Shown: positions 9,968 to 60,082 of the stretch, piece by piece
Numbering within the stretch: position 1 is the first letter of the stretch
Layout: every line of letters begins with the position of its first letter
Assembly (NCBI RefSeq): GCF_030848565.1
Contig: NZ_JAVDDV010000002.1
Span: 372,001-436,000, forward strand
Direction: 5' to 3'
From: Natronolimnohabitans sp. A-GB9
Lineage (GTDB): Archaea; Halobacteriota; Halobacteria; Halobacteriales; Natrialbaceae
Length of the DNA: 64,000 nucleotides
Translations under genes and position numbers: made by a program
Notes under the pieces: generated by a model
What the model was told of the DNA's origin: nothing
Database searches by the model: none
Seen by the model: only the letters and a program-made list of their open reading frames with translations

Positions 9968-10558
9968 CTACCAGTCGTCGCCGGCGTAGGGATAGGTCCA
10001 GATCGTGACCTGCAGGGTCACCGATTTGAACCACGCGTGGTACATGTTCTCGACTGTTTCCCGATCGTGATCTCCGGTCTCGAGGAAGTCCCGTATCGTC
10101 GCCGTGATCGGGTAGATGAAGGCGATCAGGTACCGCTGGTGGATGATCTCGACCGAATCGACGTCGTCCGTCTCGTTCTTTCCAGTTCGGTGGTGTCGAC
10201 GACCGATCTCGAACTGATAATCCAGCCACGCTTCGTCGTACGGCGTGTCACACGTGTCCTTGATCCACTGGCCGAAGCGCTCGCGGACGCGCTCGAGGTA
10301 TTCGTCGATCGGTTCGCCGGTCTCGGCGTCGGCGAAGTACTCGAGGAGGAAGTCGTGGTCCCCGACGAAACCGTACCAGACGTCCAGAATCTCGTCGATC
10401 TGGGGCTCGAGGAGCTCCCCGGCCTCCTGTAAGTACTCTTCGTCCTCCTCGGTGAACATGACCGACTGCTTCAGTCGATCGAACTCTGCTTCGTCGATCG
10501 GTGCCTCGGGAATGCTGTCGTCGCCGAGGTCGTACCCTGGAACCTGTTGATCACTCAT
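9968..10558 (-). CDS. Protoglobin, single-domain haem sensor or NO/O2-binding globin
   Basis: The 196-residue, all-helical protein matches archaeal protoglobins in length and layout: an N-terminal extension of about 20 residues (VPGYDLGDDSIPEAPIDEAE), then the globin fold. The likely proximal haem His is in the GRRHHRTGK segment near residue 130, after WLDYQFEIG. Protoglobins bind O2, CO and NO; their role in haloarchaea is not settled, but NO handling is possible, and this window also carries a nitric oxide synthase gene at 58139. No methyl-accepting or cyclase domain is attached. A TATA box (10593-10598) lies upstream. Confidence 0.85.
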   Translation of the reverse strand: MSDQQVPGYDLGDDSIPEAPIDEAEFDRLKQSVMFTEEDEEYLQEAGELLEPQIDEILDVWYGFVGDHDFLLEYFADAETGEPIDEYLERVRERFGQWIKDTCDTPYDEAWLDYQFEIGRRHHRTGKNETDDVDSVEIIHQRYLIAFIYPITATIRDFLETGDHDRETVENMYHAWFKSVTLQVTIWTYPYAGDDW

Positions 10559-19694: not shown

Positions 19695-20615
19695 ATGGGG
19701 ACGACTGTCAGGATCATCGGCGCGCCGATGGACTACGGGACGAACCGTCGCGGCGTCGACATGGGACCGTCGGCGATCCGGTATGCGGAACTGGCCGACC
19801 GACTCGAGCAGGCAGGCGTCGAGCCGATCGACGCGGGCGATCTCTCGATCCCCCACGCGGAGGAACGCGATCCCGACAGCGACCAGCCGACGCGGGGTGA
19901 CGCGAAGTTCCTCCGGGAGGTCGCCGACGTCAGCATCCGGCTGAGCGATCGGGTCGCGGAGACGCTTGCCGACGGCGAGTTCCCGCTCGTGCTCGGCGGC
20001 GACCACTCCGTCGCCATCGGCTCGATGCACGGCTCGGCTCGCGAGGCCGATCTCGGTGCGATCTGGTTCGACGCCCACGCGGACCTGAACACGCCCGCGA
20101 CCTCCCCAAGCGGGAACGTCCACGGGATGCCGCTGGCCGCCGTCCTCGGGCGGGGAGCCTTCGACGACATGGAGTGGGCAAACGTCCCCCGCGTTCGCGA
20201 GGACGCGATCGCGTACGTCGGCCTCCGGAGCATCGACGAACGCGAGCGAGAACTGGTCCGCGACAGCGACCTGACGGCGTTTACGATGTCCGACATCGAC
20301 GAACGTGGCATGACGGCGGTCGTCGAGGACGCCCTCGCGATCGCGACCGACGGCACCGACGGTGTCCACGTGAGTCTCGACTTGGACTGGGTCGATCCCA
20401 AGACCGCACCCGGGGTCGGCACGCCCGTCCGTGGCGGCGTCACCTACCGAGAGGCACACACTGCACTCGAGACCGTCTCCGAGTACCACGAACGAGACGA
20501 CGTCGTGCGATCGATGGACGTCGTCGAGGTAAATCCCATTCTGGACGAGGGAAACGAGACGGCGACGATCGCGGCCGAACTCACCGCGAGCGCGTTCGGC
20601 AAGCGGATCCTCTGA
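19695..20615 (+). CDS. rocF: Arginase/agmatinase-family ureohydrolase, probably arginase
   Basis: The 306-residue enzyme carries the three binuclear Mn-site motifs of ureohydrolases: GGDHSVAIGS (near residue 98), WFDAHADLN (near 122) and SLDLDWVDP (near 223). The short length and the NRRGVDMGPSAIRYA opening resemble bacterial and haloarchaeal arginases, which split arginine to ornithine and urea. Agmatinase activity cannot be excluded by sequence. The TGA stop codon is also the first three bases of repeat B4. Confidence 0.85.
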   Translation: MGTTVRIIGAPMDYGTNRRGVDMGPSAIRYAELADRLEQAGVEPIDAGDLSIPHAEERDPDSDQPTRGDAKFLREVADVSIRLSDRVAETLADGEFPLVLGGDHSVAIGSMHGSAREADLGAIWFDAHADLNTPATSPSGNVHGMPLAAVLGRGAFDDMEWANVPRVREDAIAYVGLRSIDERERELVRDSDLTAFTMSDIDERGMTAVVEDALAIATDGTDGVHVSLDLDWVDPKTAPGVGTPVRGGVTYREAHTALETVSEYHERDDVVRSMDVVEVNPILDEGNETATIAAELTASAFGKRIL

Positions 20616-27843: not shown

Positions 27844-29364
27844 ATGGGCACATCACGTGGAAGTGTGGCAACTCCTGTCACACGTTCCTCGAGTCGGGGG
27901 CAGTCGACGGTACTGGGTATCGTTTTGTTGATCGGGATAGTTGCCGCAGGCAGTATTGGTATTCTTCTCATTGCTGGTGATATGATTAGTAATTCACAAC
28001 AGCAGTCTGAGCAGGAACAAGTTGAGCAAACATTCGTCGAATTAAGTAAAACAATGTCTGCAGCAGCAACTGATGATACTGCTAACAAAATGCGGTTCAA
28101 TGCTGGCGACCACGGTGCGATTGTGAAAACAGAAGCTGGCCATATTAATATAACTGGAGACAATTTTGACGAGCCAATAGACGTTACTGTGGGTGCCATT
28201 GAATATCAAGGAGAAGATGGGACAGCAATTGCGTACCAAGCAGGCGGTGTGTTTCGTGGGACTGGTAACGAAACACAGATTGTTTCGGCACCTCCACTTG
28301 ATTATGATGTAGGGACAAGCACACTTACGTTCCCGATTATCGAAGTCGAAAACGAGGGACAGATTGACTCTGGTGACGTGTCAATTTCACACTCTAATAC
28401 AACAACTTATCAGTCTGCAACCTATGCAGAACAGAGTACTATTACGGTAAATATTACGAGCGAGTATTGTGTAGGTTGGGAAAATTACTTTGAGCAGGAA
28501 ACTCGCAACACTGAGGGACAAGTAATCCAGGAAACATGTAATGAAGGAACCGACAATTCTGTAGAGGCTAAACTAGGCCGGTTTGATATTAGCGATGGGA
28601 CATTCGAAGACGGAATTGTCACTGGTGAAGCTAATATTGAGGGCGGCGGACAACATGCAAATCTTGACCTTTCAGAAAGCGATCAGATCTATCCACAACT
28701 AGATAGTGAAATCGGCACAATGGTGGATGATGCAAAGGATGATAATGAAATAACAAATCTTACAAATGTTTCGGAAGAACCAGTGCCAGAAGGAAAATAT
28801 TTCGCAAAAGAAGTCGTTGGTGAAGAATACACATTCGATGTATCGGAGGGGAATACCACTTTGATAGTTGAAGGTGATATTGGTGATAGTAGTCTCGCAG
28901 TTGAGGGTACAGATAACAACACAAATTCCCTTCAAATTTTCTCAGAAGGAGATCTTTATTATAACTCTGGTCATAATAGTATTTGCGCAACAGATTGCTC
29001 TGAACCCATAAACTCCCAAGCACTCCAAATATACGGGACGTCGGAAATGCACGTCGGCATGGATGGGGGTAATTCAGATTTTGAAGGAGTAATTTACGCT
29101 CCAGCTGGGGGAAATGAATTCAAAGAAGGATATGAAAGTGACGAGATCGACAGTTGTGGTAGTCAACTTTGTCTTCAAGCAGCTGGTGACCTTCATGGAT
29201 CTGTTGTTGTTTCCTCAGCCACTGTTAAATCTGCTGCACCGGAGGGAATGTATGATCCAGAACTTGAGAACTTTTCCCCAACGATTAATCCAGACAGTTA
29301 TGTCTTTCCACCACATCTCACATATCTCAACATTGCTGAATACAAAGTTGACATAGAGGATTAA
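27844..29364 (+). CDS. AT-rich, pilin-like secreted surface protein (DUF7289 type)
   Basis: This 506-residue protein starts with a class III-like type IV pilin signal (SSSRGQSTVLGIVLLIGIVAAGSIGILLIAGD): a basic stretch and then one hydrophobic helix. A long acidic extracellular part follows, with many N-x-S/T sites (NIT, NTT, NET, NVS, NNT) and paired cysteines (ICATDCSE, CGSQLC). I associate it with haloarchaeal DUF7289 proteins (name from memory). Its base composition is far lower in GC than any neighbour, with AT-rich flanks from about 27700 to 29490, which suggests horizontal acquisition. It lies in reverse orientation between adk and DUF106, breaking the usual operon. Its function may be surface attachment, but this is inferred. 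Confidence 0.8.
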   Translation: MGTSRGSVATPVTRSSSRGQSTVLGIVLLIGIVAAGSIGILLIAGDMISNSQQQSEQEQVEQTFVELSKTMSAAATDDTANKMRFNAGDHGAIVKTEAGHINITGDNFDEPIDVTVGAIEYQGEDGTAIAYQAGGVFRGTGNETQIVSAPPLDYDVGTSTLTFPIIEVENEGQIDSGDVSISHSNTTTYQSATYAEQSTITVNITSEYCVGWENYFEQETRNTEGQVIQETCNEGTDNSVEAKLGRFDISDGTFEDGIVTGEANIEGGGQHANLDLSESDQIYPQLDSEIGTMVDDAKDDNEITNLTNVSEEPVPEGKYFAKEVVGEEYTFDVSEGNTTLIVEGDIGDSSLAVEGTDNNTNSLQIFSEGDLYYNSGHNSICATDCSEPINSQALQIYGTSEMHVGMDGGNSDFEGVIYAPAGGNEFKEGYESDEIDSCGSQLCLQAAGDLHGSVVVSSATVKSAAPEGMYDPELENFSPTINPDSYVFPPHLTYLNIAEYKVDIED

Positions 29365-29498
29365 AAAACCATCATAGTATTTCCGTAAGTCCCTCTTCCA
29401 TTTACTATTCGGAACAAAACTCAGATCGAACTATCTGGACTTGATTGATGTATCTGTTCATTTTATATTATGAAAAATTTATCGAATTCTAACGTGCT

Positions 29499-30134
29499 TT
29501 AGCTGGCGTCTTCGATCGTCGTCTTCACGTTCTCCCAGACCTCGTCGGGTGCTTGCTCGCCGTCGACGCGCTCGAGCGTGCCCTCTTCCTCGTAGTACTC
29601 GATGACCGGTTCGGTGTTCTCACGGAAGACGCGCAGTCGTTCCTTGACGGTCTCCTCGGTGTCGTCGTCGCGTTGCTCGAGTCGCTCTTCGACTTCGGGG
29701 TCTTCCGGCGGGTTGTACTCGACGTGGTAGATGTCGCCCGTCTCGGGGTCGAGTCGGCGACCCGTGAGTCGGTGGATCAGTTCGTCTTCGCTGACGTCGA
29801 GGTAGAGCGCGGCGTCTAAGTCGGTCATGTCCTCGAGTTCTTCGGCCTGCTCTAAGTTGCGCGGGTAGCCGTCGAGGACGAAGCCGTCGGCCTGGGAGAG
29901 GGCCTCGTCGACGATGGCGTTGACGACCTCGTCGGGGACGAGTTCGCCCTGGTCCATATACTCCCGTGGCGTATCGTACTCCGTGTCCATATCGGAGATG
30001 TCCATGTCCTTGTTCGCACGGAGTGCGTCGCCGGTGGTGATGTGGTCGACGTCGAACTCCTCGGTGATCTTTGCGCTCTGTGTCCCCTTTCCTGCCCCGG
30101 GTGCACCCAGGATCAGAATTCGTGGCTGTGCCAT
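29499..30134 (-). CDS. adk: Adenylate kinase
   Basis: The 211-residue enzyme shows the P-loop GAPGAGKGTQS at residues 9-19, the AMP-binding THITTGDALR region and the DGYPRN motif near residue 88. A lid segment (TGRRLDPETGDIYHVEYNPP) lacks zinc-binding cysteines. It equilibrates ATP, AMP and ADP. This is the long, bacterial-type Adk also found next to secY in archaea. The start at 30134 (MAQPRILI) matches the family, and a TATA box lies about 25 bp upstream. Confidence 0.95.
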   Translation of the reverse strand: MAQPRILILGAPGAGKGTQSAKITEEFDVDHITTGDALRANKDMDISDMDTEYDTPREYMDQGELVPDEVVNAIVDEALSQADGFVLDGYPRNLEQAEELEDMTDLDAALYLDVSEDELIHRLTGRRLDPETGDIYHVEYNPPEDPEVEERLEQRDDDTEETVKERLRVFRENTEPVIEYYEEEGTLERVDGEQAPDEVWENVKTTIEDAS

Positions 30135-51273: not shown

Positions 51274-51344
51274 GCGCTGGTAGTGTAGTGGTATCACGTG
51301 ACCTTGCCATGGTCACAACCTGGGTTCAAATCCCAGCCAGCGCA
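51274..51344 (+). tRNA. tRNA-Gly (GCC), copy 1
   Basis: A 71-nt cloverleaf: acceptor GCGCTGG/CCAGCGC, D arm TAGTGTAGTGGTATCA, anticodon arm TGACC-TTGCCAT-GGTCA with anticodon GCC, T arm CTGGGTTCAAATCCCAG, discriminator A. An identical gene lies at 51681-51751. Confidence 0.95.
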
Positions 51345-51680: not shown

Positions 51681-51751
51681 GCGCTGGTAGTGTAGTGGTA
51701 TCACGTGACCTTGCCATGGTCACAACCTGGGTTCAAATCCCAGCCAGCGCA
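51681..51751 (+). tRNA. tRNA-Gly (GCC), copy 2
   Basis: Identical to tRNA-Gly copy 1. The two genes start 407 bp apart and both are followed by the same trailer module, so they arose by a tandem duplication that included the downstream sequence. Confidence 0.95.
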
Positions 51752-53781: not shown

Positions 53782-54714
53782 ATGGAGAGTCTCAACCGGA
53801 TGGCGATCGAGTTGGTCGACGAGGCCCTCGAGTACGCCGAGGAGTTGAACATCGGCGGTTACGACCTCGCTAACGAGGCGACGGTACTCGACTTCGGCCT
53901 CGAGTTCGACGGCGGCATCGAAGCCGGACTGTTGTTGACCGAGATTCAGACCGCGGGAATGGCGACGCCGAGTCACCAGCTCGGCGAACTCGGCGACGCA
54001 CCGATACCGTTTATCGAACTGACGACGGACCAGCCGGCGCTCTCGCTGCTGTGCTCGCAGAAGGCAGGCTGGGAGCTGACGACCGAGGACTTCGAGGGGC
54101 TGGGGAGCGGGCCCGCACGCGCACTGGTCGCTCAGGAGGAGGAGTTCCACCGCGTCGGTTACACGGACGCGTTCGACCTGACGGCACTGGCCGTCGAGAC
54201 CGACCAGGAACCGACCGCCGCCGCGGCCGAACAGGTCGCCGAGCTCGCGGAGGTCGAGACCAGCAGTGTCTTCCTGCTTTCCTATCCATCCGCGAGCCTC
54301 GTTGGGAGCGTCACCAACGCCGCCCGCGCGGCCGAACTCGCGACCTTCCGGCTTTCGGAACTGGGATACGATCCCTTGGACATCGTCTCGGCGACCGGTC
54401 GAGCACCCGTCGCGCCCGTCGCCGCCGACGAGGAAACCGCGATCGCCCGAACGAACGACGCCATCGCCTACGGCGGAACGGCTCATCTCACGGTTCGTGA
54501 GGACGCCGACGTCTTCGACGACGTTCCGTCGACCGCCGCCGAGGCACACGGCCGCCCGTTCGGGGAGATCTTCGACGACCTCGAGTGGGAGTTCTCGGAG
54601 GTTCCGTCGGATCTCTTCGCACCCGCGAAGGTCACCATCGACGTAATCGGCGGGCCGACGTACGTCCATGGCGAGACCGACGAGGAACTGCTCGTCGACT
54701 CCTTCGAACTCTAA
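53782..54714 (+). CDS. mch: Methenyltetrahydromethanopterin cyclohydrolase
   Basis: The 310-residue protein matches Mch throughout: MESLNRMAIELVDEALEYAEELNIGGYDLANEATVLDFG, AGLLLTEIQTAGMATPSHQL and FEGLGSGPARAL. It interconverts methenyl- and formyl-tetrahydro(methano)pterin in one-carbon metabolism, here probably with a folate- or pterin-type carrier since haloarchaea are not methanogens. The TAA stop is followed at once by repeat A4. Its length is normal for the family. Confidence 0.92.
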   Translation: MESLNRMAIELVDEALEYAEELNIGGYDLANEATVLDFGLEFDGGIEAGLLLTEIQTAGMATPSHQLGELGDAPIPFIELTTDQPALSLLCSQKAGWELTTEDFEGLGSGPARALVAQEEEFHRVGYTDAFDLTALAVETDQEPTAAAAEQVAELAEVETSSVFLLSYPSASLVGSVTNAARAAELATFRLSELGYDPLDIVSATGRAPVAPVAADEETAIARTNDAIAYGGTAHLTVREDADVFDDVPSTAAEAHGRPFGEIFDDLEWEFSEVPSDLFAPAKVTIDVIGGPTYVHGETDEELLVDSFEL

Positions 54715-55785: not shown

Positions 55786-57435
55786 TCACTCCATCGGGTG
55801 GACGTCGGTCACCGTTCCGACGCCCTTACTGCGGCCCTCGCGGAAGACGAACTTCTGGCCCTCCTCGACGAGGTACGGACGGAACTTGAACCGAACCGTG
55901 GTCTTACCGGTGTCACCCGGAAGGAGACGGCCGTTTTTCGGGTAGAAGGCCGCGGCCTCGCCGATCGTCTCGAGGTGGACGACGGGTTCGTAGCCGTCGC
56001 CGATCCGGGTGGGGTGGTTGAGAACCATCACTTCGGCTTCGAACTCCCGGACGGGGTCGGGATCGGCGTCGCGTGGCAACAGGACCATCCCGCGGTCGAT
56101 GGCGCTTTCTTTGACGCCTTTGAGCGCGATACCGACGATTCGGCCGGCCTGGGCCTCGTCGACACGGTGGTAGTGCATCTCGATCGAGCGGACTTCGACC
56201 TCCCGGAACCGGCCGTCGGGCATCGGCCCGAGCAGGAGTTCGTCGCCGGCCTCGACCTCGCCGGACATGACGGTTCCGGAGGCGACTGCACCGACGCCGG
56301 TCACCGAGTAGCTCCGGTCGACGTACATCCGGAACTCGCCGGTATCCTGGGACGTCTTGGGGAGCCGATCGAACAGCTCGTCTAACGTCTCGAGGCCGTC
56401 CATCGTGATCGCGCTCGTCTCGACGATCGGGACGACCCGTTCGCTGATCTCTTCGACGGCGGCGTCGACGCCGTGGCGGGAGACCCGCAGCGGCGACTTG
56501 TCGACCTCGCGCAGGAGGCGTTCGACCTCGCGTTCGACGTCCTCGATGCGCTCCTCGTCGACGATATCGGTCTTGGTGATCGCGACGATCGTCGGGAGGT
56601 CCGTCGCCAGCAAGACGCCGAGGTGTTCTCGAGTGGTGCGTGTCGGTCCGTCGTCAGCGGCGACGACCAACAGTCCGTAGTCGAGTTTCTGGCCGACGAG
56701 CCCTCGAATGGTGGTTCGGAGCCACGGCTCGTGACCGACCGTGTCGACGAAGGAGACGAGACGGTCGGCCTCCTCGACGACTTCCGCGCGGTCTGTCTTG
56801 CGGTTCGGATTCCGGACCCGGACCGGGCCCTCCTCGTCGAAACCGTAGACGGCATACGACAGGTCCGCCGACAGCCCGCGTTCGACCTCGTGGGGCTGGA
56901 CGTCAAGATACGCCCGCGTGGCGCCGTCGCCGTCGTCGGGCGTGCCCGTGACGAGCGAGCCGACGAGCGTGCTCTTTCCGTGGTCGACGTGGCCCGCCGT
57001 CCCGACGACGACGTGTTCGTCGTCCGTCTCGAGGACGCCCCCCTCACGGATCGTCGCGACGCCGACCAGCCCGGACGTCTCCGACGATCGGTCGCCGCCG
57101 GATTCACTCGAGCGCGAAACACCGTCTACGCTCCACGTCTGGACCTCGTCGATGTGTGCGTCTGCCTCTTCGGCGAGCAAGGAGAGAACGTCCATCGTCT
57201 CGGAGAACGTGTCGGGGTCGACGCCAGCGAGTCCGCCGTCGTCGGTCACGCCGACGACGTAGGTCGCCTCGCCGTCCCCGGAGAGCAGTCGGTGACGCAG
57301 TTGCGCGGCCAGGCTCTCCCGGCGTCCACCCTCGAGGTGGACGTCTCGTGACAGGCGTTCCTTGAATTCGACGTTGCCACCGTCCTGTTCGCCACGGTCC
57401 AGGGCTCGCTCGAGGAGAGCCCGGTCACGGCTCAT
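55786..57435 (-). CDS. GTPBP1-like translational GTPase
   Basis: The 549-residue protein has an N-terminal extension (about residues 1-150; GNVEFKERLSRDVHLEGGRRES, YVVGVTDDGGLAGV), then a GTPase with G1 GTAGHVDHGKST (near 160), G3 DTVGHE and G4 TKTD, then two beta-barrel domains. This is the layout of archaeal relatives of GTPBP1/2 within the EF-Tu/EF1A superfamily. A role in ribosome or mRNA quality control is likely by analogy. The start at 57435 is preferred because it fits family starts; an ATG at 57462 would add nine residues. Confidence 0.85.
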   Translation of the reverse strand: MSRDRALLERALDRGEQDGGNVEFKERLSRDVHLEGGRRESLAAQLRHRLLSGDGEATYVVGVTDDGGLAGVDPDTFSETMDVLSLLAEEADAHIDEVQTWSVDGVSRSSESGGDRSSETSGLVGVATIREGGVLETDDEHVVVGTAGHVDHGKSTLVGSLVTGTPDDGDGATRAYLDVQPHEVERGLSADLSYAVYGFDEEGPVRVRNPNRKTDRAEVVEEADRLVSFVDTVGHEPWLRTTIRGLVGQKLDYGLLVVAADDGPTRTTREHLGVLLATDLPTIVAITKTDIVDEERIEDVEREVERLLREVDKSPLRVSRHGVDAAVEEISERVVPIVETSAITMDGLETLDELFDRLPKTSQDTGEFRMYVDRSYSVTGVGAVASGTVMSGEVEAGDELLLGPMPDGRFREVEVRSIEMHYHRVDEAQAGRIVGIALKGVKESAIDRGMVLLPRDADPDPVREFEAEVMVLNHPTRIGDGYEPVVHLETIGEAAAFYPKNGRLLPGDTGKTTVRFKFRPYLVEEGQKFVFREGRSKGVGTVTDVHPME

Positions 57436-57616
57436 ACAGTCCGGTAGCGGCTCACACGGCAAAAGCCTTCTCGTATGTTGTTAACACGTGCCACGAAAAT
57501 GTCCGGCGTTCGGAACTCACTCGAGCCAGTAGTACACGGTCTCTCGACCGGAACGGCGGTCGACAACGCCGGCATTCCGGGGGCGGTTTCAAGACGCTCG
57601 AGTGCCTATTTCGAGT

Positions 57617-57796
57617 ATGAGCGTCAGCGGTCTCTGTCAGATCTGTGAGTCACAACCCGCACAACACCGGTGTCCGAACTGCGGGACGCTCGCCTGTGAC
57701 GACCACTTCGAGGAGTCACGCGGGATCTGTGTCGACTGTGCCACACAGGCGGATCCGAGCCGACAGTCCGAGGACGTGGACATCCATCGATTCTAA
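57617..57796 (+). CDS. Small HIT-type zinc-finger protein
   Basis: The 59-residue protein MSVSGLCQICESQPAQHRCPNCGTLACDDHF has seven cysteines and two His arranged like a zf-HIT or B-box treble clef (CQIC, CPNCGTLAC, CVDC). It is followed 2 bp on by the next small gene, so the two may form one transcript. Function unknown. Confidence 0.75.
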   Translation: MSVSGLCQICESQPAQHRCPNCGTLACDDHFEESRGICVDCATQADPSRQSEDVDIHRF

Positions 57797-57798
57797 CC

Positions 57799-58053
57799 GT
57801 GACCTCGATCCGCGACGTCCTCGGCGAGACGCTGGCTATCGGTGAACGGTTCGACCTCGTCCTCGAGGAGCGCGACGGCGTCCTCGTTGCCGACCATCCA
57901 AACGACGCGTGTCCGATGGACGTCGCCGTCGTCGAGGGACTGGATCGACTCGAGGAGCGACCGCCAACCGACCCGGTCACGGTCGAGATCGTCGATCGAA
58001 TCGACGACGGGTACGTGACGGGACGCGTGGTCGAAGATTCTCGGGCCACTTGA
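57799..58053 (+). CDS. Small acidic conserved protein, unknown function
   Basis: The 84-residue protein starts with GTG at 57799 and reads MTSIRDVLGETLAIGERFDLVLEERDGVLVADHPNDACPMDVAVVEGLDRLEERPPTDPV. It has no clear motif. It follows the HIT zinc-finger gene by 2 bp and is upstream of the nitric oxide synthase gene by 85 bp. It is probably a haloarchaeal family (recalled as DUF7126, not certain). Confidence 0.65.
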   Translation: MTSIRDVLGETLAIGERFDLVLEERDGVLVADHPNDACPMDVAVVEGLDRLEERPPTDPVTVEIVDRIDDGYVTGRVVEDSRAT

Positions 58054-58138
58054 TCCAGGCACGTCACTGTTTTCGGTACGTTCTTCGAATCGTGGAACGA
58101 CCGATGTCCCTAAACCGATCCGGTCCTCCGATCCCGGC

Positions 58139-59248
58139 ATGCACGCGCCCGTGCCGGAGTACGACCCCGAGAGACTACTTGCAGACGCCGAGACGTTCAT
58201 CCGGCAGTGTTACACGGAACTCGACCGCGAAGACGAAATCGAGGGACGGATCGCCGAGATCGAGTCCGAAATCGAGGAGACGGGCCACTACGAACACACT
58301 GCCGCGGAACTCGAGCACGGCGCACGGATGGCCTGGCGCAACAGCAACCGCTGTATCGGACGACTGTTCTGGGAGTCCCTGAACGTCCGCGACGCCCGCG
58401 ACCGCTCGAGTGCTGAAGGTGTCTACGAGGAGTTGTGTGAACACCTCGAGTACGCCACCAACGGCGGGGACATCCGGCCGACGATCACGCTTTTCGAGCC
58501 GATGGTCCGTGGCGACCAGCAGGTCCGAATCTGGAACTACCAGCTGATCCGCTATGCCGGCTACGAGACGGACGACGGCGTCGTCGGCGATCCGGACTCA
58601 CTCGAGTTTACCGAGTACTGCCAATCGAAAGGCTGGGAGGGCGAAGGCACTGACTACGACGTCCTTCCGCTCGTGATCGAGACGACCGAGGAGGAGCCCG
58701 AACTGTTCGAGGTACCCGAGGAACTGGTTCTCGAGGTACCCATCACTCACCCCGACTACGCCTGGTTCGACGAACTCGGACTACAGTGGTACGCCGTCCC
58801 CGTCGTCTCGAACATGCGCCTCGAGATCGGCGGACTCCAGTACACCGCCGCCCCGTTCAACGGCTGGTATATGGCGACCGAGATCGCGGCGCGCAACTTC
58901 GGCGACGAGGATCGCTACGACGTGCTCCCGGAAGTCGCCGATCGGCTCGGCCTGAACACGAACCGGAACCGCAACCTCTGGAAGGACGAGGCGCTGGTCG
59001 AGTTGAACCGGGCGGTGTTGCACTCCTTCGAACGCGACGGGGTGAAAATCGTCGACCACCACACGGCGGCCGAGCAGTTCGAGGCGTTCGAACGCCGCGA
59101 GGAGGCCGCGGGCCGGGACGTGACGGGCGACCGATCCTGGCTTCTCCCGCCGATGTCGTCGTCGACGACCCATATCTTCCACAAGAAGTACGACAACGAG
59201 ATCAACACGCCCAATTTCTTCTACCGGCCGGCGCCCTACGAGAAATGA
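58139..59248 (+). CDS. nos: Nitric oxide synthase, oxygenase domain only
   Basis: The 369-residue protein is a bacterial-type NOS oxygenase. The haem-thiolate Cys is C72 in WRNSNRCIGRLFW, the arginine-binding Glu is E248 in NGWYMATEIAARN and the pterin-contact Trp is about W334 in DRSWLLPPMSSSTTHIFHKKYD. No flavin reductase domain is present, so it must borrow electrons from another protein. It oxidises L-arginine to NO and citrulline. NOS in archaea is rare, with a published case in Natronomonas as I recall. It stands alone between a small protein gene and pyrF. Arginase (19695) and protoglobin (9968) in the same window are possible functional partners, though they are not adjacent. Confidence 0.95.
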   Translation: MHAPVPEYDPERLLADAETFIRQCYTELDREDEIEGRIAEIESEIEETGHYEHTAAELEHGARMAWRNSNRCIGRLFWESLNVRDARDRSSAEGVYEELCEHLEYATNGGDIRPTITLFEPMVRGDQQVRIWNYQLIRYAGYETDDGVVGDPDSLEFTEYCQSKGWEGEGTDYDVLPLVIETTEEEPELFEVPEELVLEVPITHPDYAWFDELGLQWYAVPVVSNMRLEIGGLQYTAAPFNGWYMATEIAARNFGDEDRYDVLPEVADRLGLNTNRNRNLWKDEALVELNRAVLHSFERDGVKIVDHHTAAEQFEAFERREEAAGRDVTGDRSWLLPPMSSSTTHIFHKKYDNEINTPNFFYRPAPYEK

Positions 59249-59281: not shown

Positions 59282-60082
59282 TCACTCGCGGTACTGATTC
59301 AGCCGCTTTTTAAGCCGCTTTGCGGCCTCGCCCGATGCTTTTGCGAACTCCTCGCCGCGGTCCTCGCCGGCGAAAATGATCCCGCGCGAGGAGTTGACCA
59401 GGCCGACGCCGTCGGCGAGGCCGTACTCGACGGCGGCCTCGGCGTCACCACCCTGTGCGCCCACGCCGGGCACGAGGAAGGGCAGATCGGGTACCTGCTC
59501 GCGCAGTTGCTCGAGTTCTTCGGGTTTCGTCGCACCGACGACGAGCCCCACGTTGTCGTGTTCGTTCCACAGGTCGGCCAGTGCGGCCACGCGCTCGTAG
59601 AGCGGTTCGCCGGTCTCGAGTTCCAGATCCTGCAGATCCGCACCGCCGGGGTTAGAGGTCCGACAGAGGACGAAGACGCCCGACGCCTCGTCGTCTAGGA
59701 ACGGTTGCAGCGAGTCTCGGCCCATGTAGGGGTTGACCGTGATGGCGTCGACCGTCTCGAGCATCTGTGCGTACTGTCGGGTCGTGTTCCCAATGTCGGC
59801 TCGCTTGGCGTCGAGCAGAACAGGGACGTCCTTGCCGTGGGCGTAGGCGATCGTCTCCTCTAAGGCCCGCCAGCCGTCGGGATCCTCGTAGAAGGCGGCG
59901 TTCGGTTTGTAGACGGCGGCGTGTTCGTGCGTGGCGTCGATGATCCGGCGGTTGAAGGCCCACCGCGGGAGGTCGTGATCCGCGAGGTGGTCGGGAAGCC
60001 GCGATGGATCGGGATCGAGACCGACGCTGACGATGCTGTCGACCGTCCGAATGCGGTCGTGCAGCCGATCGAAGAAGTTCAT
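59282..60082 (-). CDS. pyrF: Orotidine-5'-phosphate decarboxylase
   Basis: The 266-residue enzyme contains the catalytic LLDAKRADIGNT motif near residue 91 and SSRGIIFAGE near the C-terminus, a TIM-barrel that converts OMP to UMP. It matches the longer PyrF type 2. It is convergent with nos. The 5' side holds a small palindrome, TACTGCCGGCCGACAGT, at 60121. Confidence 0.94.
   Translation of the reverse strand: MNFFDRLHDRIRTVDSIVSVGLDPDPSRLPDHLADHDLPRWAFNRRIIDATHEHAAVYKPNAAFYEDPDGWRALEETIAYAHGKDVPVLLDAKRADIGNTTRQYAQMLETVDAITVNPYMGRDSLQPFLDDEASGVFVLCRTSNPGGADLQDLELETGEPLYERVAALADLWNEHDNVGLVVGATKPEELEQLREQVPDLPFLVPGVGAQGGDAEAAVEYGLADGVGLVNSSRGIIFAGEDRGEEFAKASGEAAKRLKKRLNQYRE

Follow-up and report, generated by a model that had tools for sequence, protein, structure and literature searches.

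The window analysed here, a stretch of 64,000 nucleotides of contig NZ_JAVDDV010000002.1 from the haloarchaeon Natronolimnohabitans sp. A-GB9 (Natrialbaceae), contains a stand-alone nitric oxide synthase (NOS) oxygenase gene at positions 58139-59248 of the forward strand. The reading frame comprises 369 open codons, from ATG to TGA, and the opposite strand is interrupted by stops. The profile PF02898 matches residues 11-367 of the 369-amino-acid product with an E-value of 3.9e-171 and a score of 569 bits (curated cut-off, 22.7); the alignment spans profile positions 3-361, i.e., 359 of 362. The best relatives in PDB are the NOS of Geobacillus and Bacillus subtilis (2flq and 1m7v; E-values down to 7.8e-149). 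These E-values place the NOS assignment far beyond chance; none of the NCBIfam models matches the protein. No other PF02898 match is found in the genome (4.30 Mb, 72 contigs). The earlier note had described a NOS oxygenase free of a reductase domain and of an adjoining reductase, and both descriptions hold: the PF02898 match is full-length, the protein consists of this single domain, and the downstream gene, on the opposite strand, encodes orotidine 5'-phosphate (OMP) decarboxylase. Judged from the sequence, two characteristics of bacterial type I NOS are present, namely, an oxygenase domain alone and the lack of the N-terminal zinc-binding Cys-X4-Cys hook (the first Cys does not occur before residue 24, and the domain match starts from residue 11). 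The fused diflavin reductase of the mammalian-type NOS is absent.

The gene order in this part of the window is Mch, HAD, GTPase, a small cysteine-rich ORF, u84, NOS and OMP decarboxylase. The immediate edges of the NOS site are u84, a conserved 84-amino-acid protein without a Pfam match (57799-58053, forward strand), and the OMP decarboxylase gene (OMPdc; 59282-60082, reverse strand, PF00215). Synteny and profile matches also identify two conserved parts of the site further upstream, an EF-Tu-like GTPase with an uncertain start (55786-57462, reverse strand, PF00009) and Mch, methenyl-tetrahydromethanopterin/tetrahydrofolate cyclohydrolase (53782-54714, forward strand, PF02289, E-value 1.1e-114). 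Inspection by eye shows that the ORF just upstream of u84 (57617-57796) encodes a zinc-finger-like protein of 59 amino acids. Elsewhere in the window, two tRNA-Gly genes, both with the GCC anticodon, lie about 340 bp apart (51274-51344 and 51681-51751), and positions 28001-30000, with a GC content of 0.468 compared to about 0.63 elsewhere and a gene for a protein with DUF7289/DUF7305 domains (GC3 of 0.33), are possibly foreign DNA.

A TATA-like TAAA word (58111-58114, forward strand) starts 28 nucleotides before the NOS start codon. With three loci of uncertain start (L015, L016 and L021) left out of the count, 14 of the remaining 21 haloarchaeal NOS genes have a TWWA word that starts at -31 to -22; over 2000 shuffles this number averaged 1.8 and never exceeded 7. 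This pattern suggests that NOS has its own promoter and a nearly leaderless transcript wherever the gene sits.

The window protein was aligned with 23 further haloarchaeal NOS and with 9 bacterial ones encoded on plasmids (33 rows). All 24 haloarchaeal rows share Trp66, Cys72, Glu248, Arg252 and Trp334, and the haem-thiolate Cys72 and the stacking Trp66 are invariant throughout (33 of 33). Alignment with the PDB entries 2flq and 1m7v equates Glu248 with E248 and E243, Arg252 with R252 and R247, and Trp334 with W334 and W329, respectively. We take Cys72 to be the haem ligand, Trp66 its stacking partner, Glu248 the residue that binds the arginine guanidinium, and Arg252 and Trp334 parts of the pterin site. 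The pterin motif W-x-W is less uniform: its first Trp, presumably equivalent to Trp455 of iNOS, is replaced by Arg332 in the window protein and 13 other haloarchaeal proteins (14 of 24), and is kept in all 11 bacterial rows (9 of 9 plasmid-borne proteins and both Bacillota NOS from PDB). Thus, the haem Cys, Arg-binding Glu and pterin Trp named in the earlier note are found as Cys72, Glu248 and Trp334, and the full alignment, which the note had proposed as a check for loss of cofactor-binding residues, shows the key residues in 24 of 24 haloarchaeal rows but one pterin-site Trp replaced.

The replacement does not occur alone. Arg332 is always paired with Leu336, Trp332 is paired with Ile or Val336, and residue 341 co-varies in 23 of the 24 proteins. 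When these columns are left out of the tree, the Arg/Trp swap requires 5 changes on it, 2 of which are forced by starred branches. A mosaic origin of the Arg332 module was considered and rejected, because windowed identities along the window protein do not clearly set off any foreign block. With Arg332 in place of a Trp, pterin binding or coupling may differ. In mammalian NOS, loss of a particular Trp leads to uncoupling (passages of PMC3795282); we take its counterpart to be Trp334, which is retained here.

A further difference concerns the gate for NO release, which we place at column 223 by the numbering of the Geobacillus and Bacillus proteins (I223 and I218, respectively), in agreement with the PDB alignment. 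The window protein has Val223, as part of a haloarchaeal majority (Val in 22 of 24 rows); the plasmid-borne bacterial proteins are divided (4 Val, 5 Ile), and both PDB Bacillota NOS have Ile. In the accounts given in passages of PMC9500659, bacterial NOS have a conserved Ile at the gate, and the Val of mammalian NOS is tied to efficient NO release. The Ile gate is a tendency of bacterial type I NOS rather than a strict definition, and Val223 departs from it.

NOS is patchily distributed among haloarchaea. It is present, always as a single copy, in 24 of 391 genomes of the class Halobacteria, which represent 16 of 86 genera, and in 3 of 196 genomes of a phylum-wide draw, all three already among the 24. 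The rarity in archaea stated in the earlier note is therefore borne out as a matter of frequency but not of novelty, because the NOS of Natronomonas pharaonis has been in print since 2020 (Orsini et al., cited in passages of PMC9500659 and PMC9311577). The literature search, which covered open-licence papers, found no second archaeal NOS study. Given the published archaeal NOS, the window gene is a solid but ordinary find. The closest haloarchaeal relatives are up to 80.7% identical to the window protein; two genomes carry NOS on Natribaculum-type plasmids of 636,809 and 861,699 bases, and the Natribaculum luteum copy is annotated in RefSeq as "nitric oxide synthase oxygenase". Three contigs of the IMG/VR viral collection (L122, L123 and L124) encode NOS homologues with 46-53% identity, which may be true virus genes or mis-binned host DNA.

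Within the family Natrialbaceae, the chromosomal site itself can be compared between genomes. OMPdc is present in 110 of 111 genomes of the family, and NOS adjoins u84 in six loci, the window and L028-L032, in one of which (L029) OMPdc is located elsewhere. The OMPdc regions of 20 further genomes of the family, including a genome of the same genus (G378), contain no NOS (0 of 20). Fifteen of these genomes lack NOS genome-wide, 3 have it elsewhere, and 2 (G555 and G559) were checked in the site region only. In 16 of the 20 regions u84 is retained, at 9-1635 bp from OMPdc (at most 357 bp in 14). A tree built from three proteins that flank the site, with 23 rows (three of the 26 regions, with OMPdc only, were left out), places filled sites both deep (genera g21 and g4) and in derived positions (g1 and g9), and site occupancy on it requires 5 changes, at least 3 of them forced by starred branches. 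The simplest reading is that NOS is an old resident of one gap in the family that has been repeatedly lost as a single gene; G378 and the g9 genomes G085 and G321 would be such losses. Repeated loss of this one gene implies that NOS is dispensable. Repeated gain of NOS at the same gap is a lesser possibility, given that on the flank tree the filled sites group together no more than randomly assigned labels do (204 of 500 label shuffles are as low).

The comparison of archaeal and bacterial NOS phylogeny suggested in the earlier note gives a single haloarchaeal grouping within the available sample. In a tree of 35 proteins, the 24 haloarchaeal NOS form a single clade (support 97/96), with the Geobacillus and B. 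subtilis proteins as its sister (99/96). The bacterial side comprises 11 rows, 9 of them from plasmids, and six are on long branches, so that a Bacillota donor is provisional. A contig scan with the window protein as the lone query yielded a single weak match from Thermoleophilia (31%), and the bacterial sampling accordingly rests on plasmid records and the two PDB entries. The haloarchaeal families f1 (Natrialbaceae) and f3 are scattered on the tree, with 5 changes each, implying that NOS either moved between families or was lost very often. The sampled haloarchaeal NOS would descend from one bacterial-type gene, with Bacillota as the nearest sampled relatives, and would have moved between haloarchaeal families.

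Outside the Natrialbaceae site, almost no neighbour of NOS recurs in three or more loci; the exceptions are a few clusters whose position varies and those common to three Natribaculum-type loci. A Pfam scan covered 30 of the 34 nearest-neighbour proteins in 17 loci outside the site (neighbours in L027 and L059 were omitted as near-copies of those in L026). A peroxidase (L038) and a peroxiredoxin (L036) each appear once, too few to carry meaning. A conserved operon partner was rejected on these grounds. Among bacterial plasmids, two alphaproteobacterial loci (L057:1403-5141 and L058:1280-4107) have a radical SAM gene directly before NOS and a glycosyltransferase gene close by, an arrangement that looks like an NO-using biosynthetic cluster, and in a Nostoc plasmid (L050:4873-10516) NOS has an SDR oxidoreductase on either side, accompanied by a desaturase and an aminotransferase, which also looks like a biosynthetic cluster.

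The arginase and protoglobin that the earlier note had seen in the window are present as family members, an arginase-family gene at 19707-20594 (match bounds, forward strand; PF00491, E-value 2.0e-76) and a protoglobin-family gene at 9983-10495 (match bounds, reverse strand; PF11563, E-value 1.2e-34). The family PF00491 includes agmatinases and other relatives, which leaves the label "arginase" unsettled. The proposed links of the two genes to NOS through substrate competition and NO binding find no backing. The genes are 37 and 48 kb, respectively, from NOS, for each a further copy exists on a different contig, and both families are represented in control genomes that gave no match in the NOS search, e.g., those of Haloferax volcanii and Escherichia coli. 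They were rejected as NOS partners on account of distance, second copies and the lack of a shared neighbourhood.

As regards the electron donor, the genome encodes no FNR-type domain (PF00175) and no flavodoxin domain (PF00258) above the cut-off, with one sub-threshold PF00258 match. The search for a reductase with a matching distribution, a check proposed in the earlier note, was run for these two families in 48 genomes chosen by hand, 24 with NOS and 24 without it (14 of the latter from Natrialbaceae). It produced no match: PF00258 is found above the cut-off in 3 of the 24 NOS genomes compared to 8 of the 24 others, and PF00175 in 7 and 5, respectively. Neither being enriched in the NOS genomes, a dedicated flavodoxin/FNR partner was rejected. 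The absence of both domains from the genome leaves ferredoxins or other reductases, and we infer that the donor is a ferredoxin. As for the pterin, PF00809 pterin-binding domains are present in 48 of 48 genomes, tetrahydrofolate is the haloarchaeal C1 carrier (passages of PMC8305020), and bacterial NOS take tetrahydrofolate in place of BH4 (passages of PMC9500659). The H. volcanii homologue of Mch is predicted to act on tetrahydrofolate (passages of PMC8305020); since Mch neighbours the site in genomes with and without NOS, no functional link is claimed.

A cofactor of a different kind was also considered, given the distribution of PTPS-A, a second PTPS paralogue that is present in 234 of the 391 genomes. 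A dedicated biopterin-like cofactor of NOS, with PTPS-A taking part in its synthesis, is compatible with the presence of this gene in 19 of 24 NOS genomes compared to 215 of 367 genomes without NOS, and with genus g9, where both genes are present in G052, G167 and G363 and both absent in G085 and G321. We nevertheless consider this very unlikely: the association, strong in the 48 hand-picked genomes, weakens class-wide (Fisher p = 0.053 in the 391 genomes, with kinship ignored), only 3 independent pairs are available (p at best 0.25; two of the 23 flank-tree rows, G357 and G559, were left out of this test), five NOS genomes have no PTPS-A, and the paralogue lacks the catalytic Cys, with the ExxxHSH motif present. 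Production of NO for a dedicated partner enzyme in a nitration or natural-product pathway deserves equally little credence. Some bacterial NOS provide a precedent, TxtD acting for TxtE (passages of PMC9500659), but no neighbour recurs outside the housekeeping site, and the scanned nearest neighbours (30 of 34, 17 loci outside the site) include no P450, globin, flavodoxin or FNR domains. In the genome of the window, PTPS-A lies in a conserved haloarchaeal operon (L084:6865-10431, contig C1). The other genes there encode a methyltransferase-like protein, a zinc-type dehydrogenase and a group 1 glycosyltransferase, and each of them is found again in 20-24 of 29 loci; the operon perhaps makes a glycosylated pterin-like product.

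Other alternatives concern the gene itself. The absence of NOS from the same-genus genome G378 could point to a recent, isolated horizontal transfer into this strain or to a contaminating bacterial contig, but such an origin is exceedingly improbable. A further 5 genomes, from 3 other genera, have NOS at this very site, which refutes the strong form of this explanation; the GC3 of NOS (0.84) and its acidic composition are like those of the neighbouring genes; the contig has haloarchaeal synteny and a SecY gene; and the nearest relatives of the protein are the haloarchaeal NOS mentioned above. A decaying or non-catalytic NOS-like protein retained for another role could account for Arg332 in place of the pterin-site Trp and for the frequent loss of the gene; it is improbable in view of the identity of the catalytic residues in all 24 haloarchaeal proteins, the lack of internal stops in all 24 matches, and dN/dS values well below 1 (0.09-0.28 in five NOS pairs). 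The NOS gene is under purifying selection. Somewhat less improbable, although still unlikely, is that the haloarchaeal NOS are functional variants tuned unlike Bacillus NOS, with a different pterin, faster NO release and a ferredoxin donor. A four-residue module at the pterin/dimer end, Arg332-Leu336-Met/Asn339-Ser341, would here replace Trp-Ile-Val-Pro, having switched several times, and might suit a different, perhaps negatively charged pterin, e.g., a phospho- or sulfopterin of haloarchaea or folylpolyglutamate. In combination with a gate Val like that of mammals, the module would make NO release faster, and the donor would be a ferredoxin, not a flavoprotein.

Compared to the known systems, the window protein is closest in kind to the N. 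pharaonis NOS, which is likewise stand-alone, bacterial-like and haloarchaeal but belongs to another haloarchaeal family and another gene neighbourhood. The NOS at L011 (genome G099), which we take to be the N. pharaonis protein, is 68% identical to it. The Natribaculum plasmid NOS (WP_246975338.1, NZ_CP095398) is 78% identical and is encoded on a megaplasmid beside a P-type ATPase, whereas the window gene occupies a chromosomal site. With the B. subtilis and Geobacillus NOS the window protein shares the domain, a similar length, the haem, substrate and main pterin residues and the reductase-less state, but it differs at the gate (Val223 for Ile), at residue 134 (Tyr for His) and at residue 332 (Arg for Trp), the last being coupled to changes at 336, 339 and 341. 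It shares the oxygenase domain and the Val at the gate position with mammalian NOS and, unlike these, has neither the reductase domain nor the N-terminal Cys-X4-Cys.

Taken together, this haloarchaeon of the family Natrialbaceae has a NOS oxygenase of the bacterial type that is intact and ordinary, one of a kind already known. Very probably, it is a functional type I enzyme, an old resident of one gap that has been repeatedly lost and is dispensable. By analogy with its family, the protein would dimerise and bind haem through Cys72; Glu248 would hold L-arginine, with a reduced pterin next to it that stacks on Trp334, and arginine would be converted via N-hydroxy-arginine to citrulline and NO. 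The genome and the literature point to tetrahydrofolate as the probable pterin, and general carriers would supply the electrons, the likeliest being [2Fe-2S] ferredoxins of the halobacterial type, with no diflavin reductase involved. Its use can be guessed at: a protective role under stress has been proposed for bacterial NOS, and the same may hold here. In the haloarchaea, NOS is a patchy yet long-established gene rather than an oddity of a single species. Close relatives with and without NOS at the same chromosomal gap constitute a natural experiment, and the Val gate, the Trp-to-Arg swap and the FNR-less genome yield three predictions, on the NO release rate, the cofactor and the electron donor.
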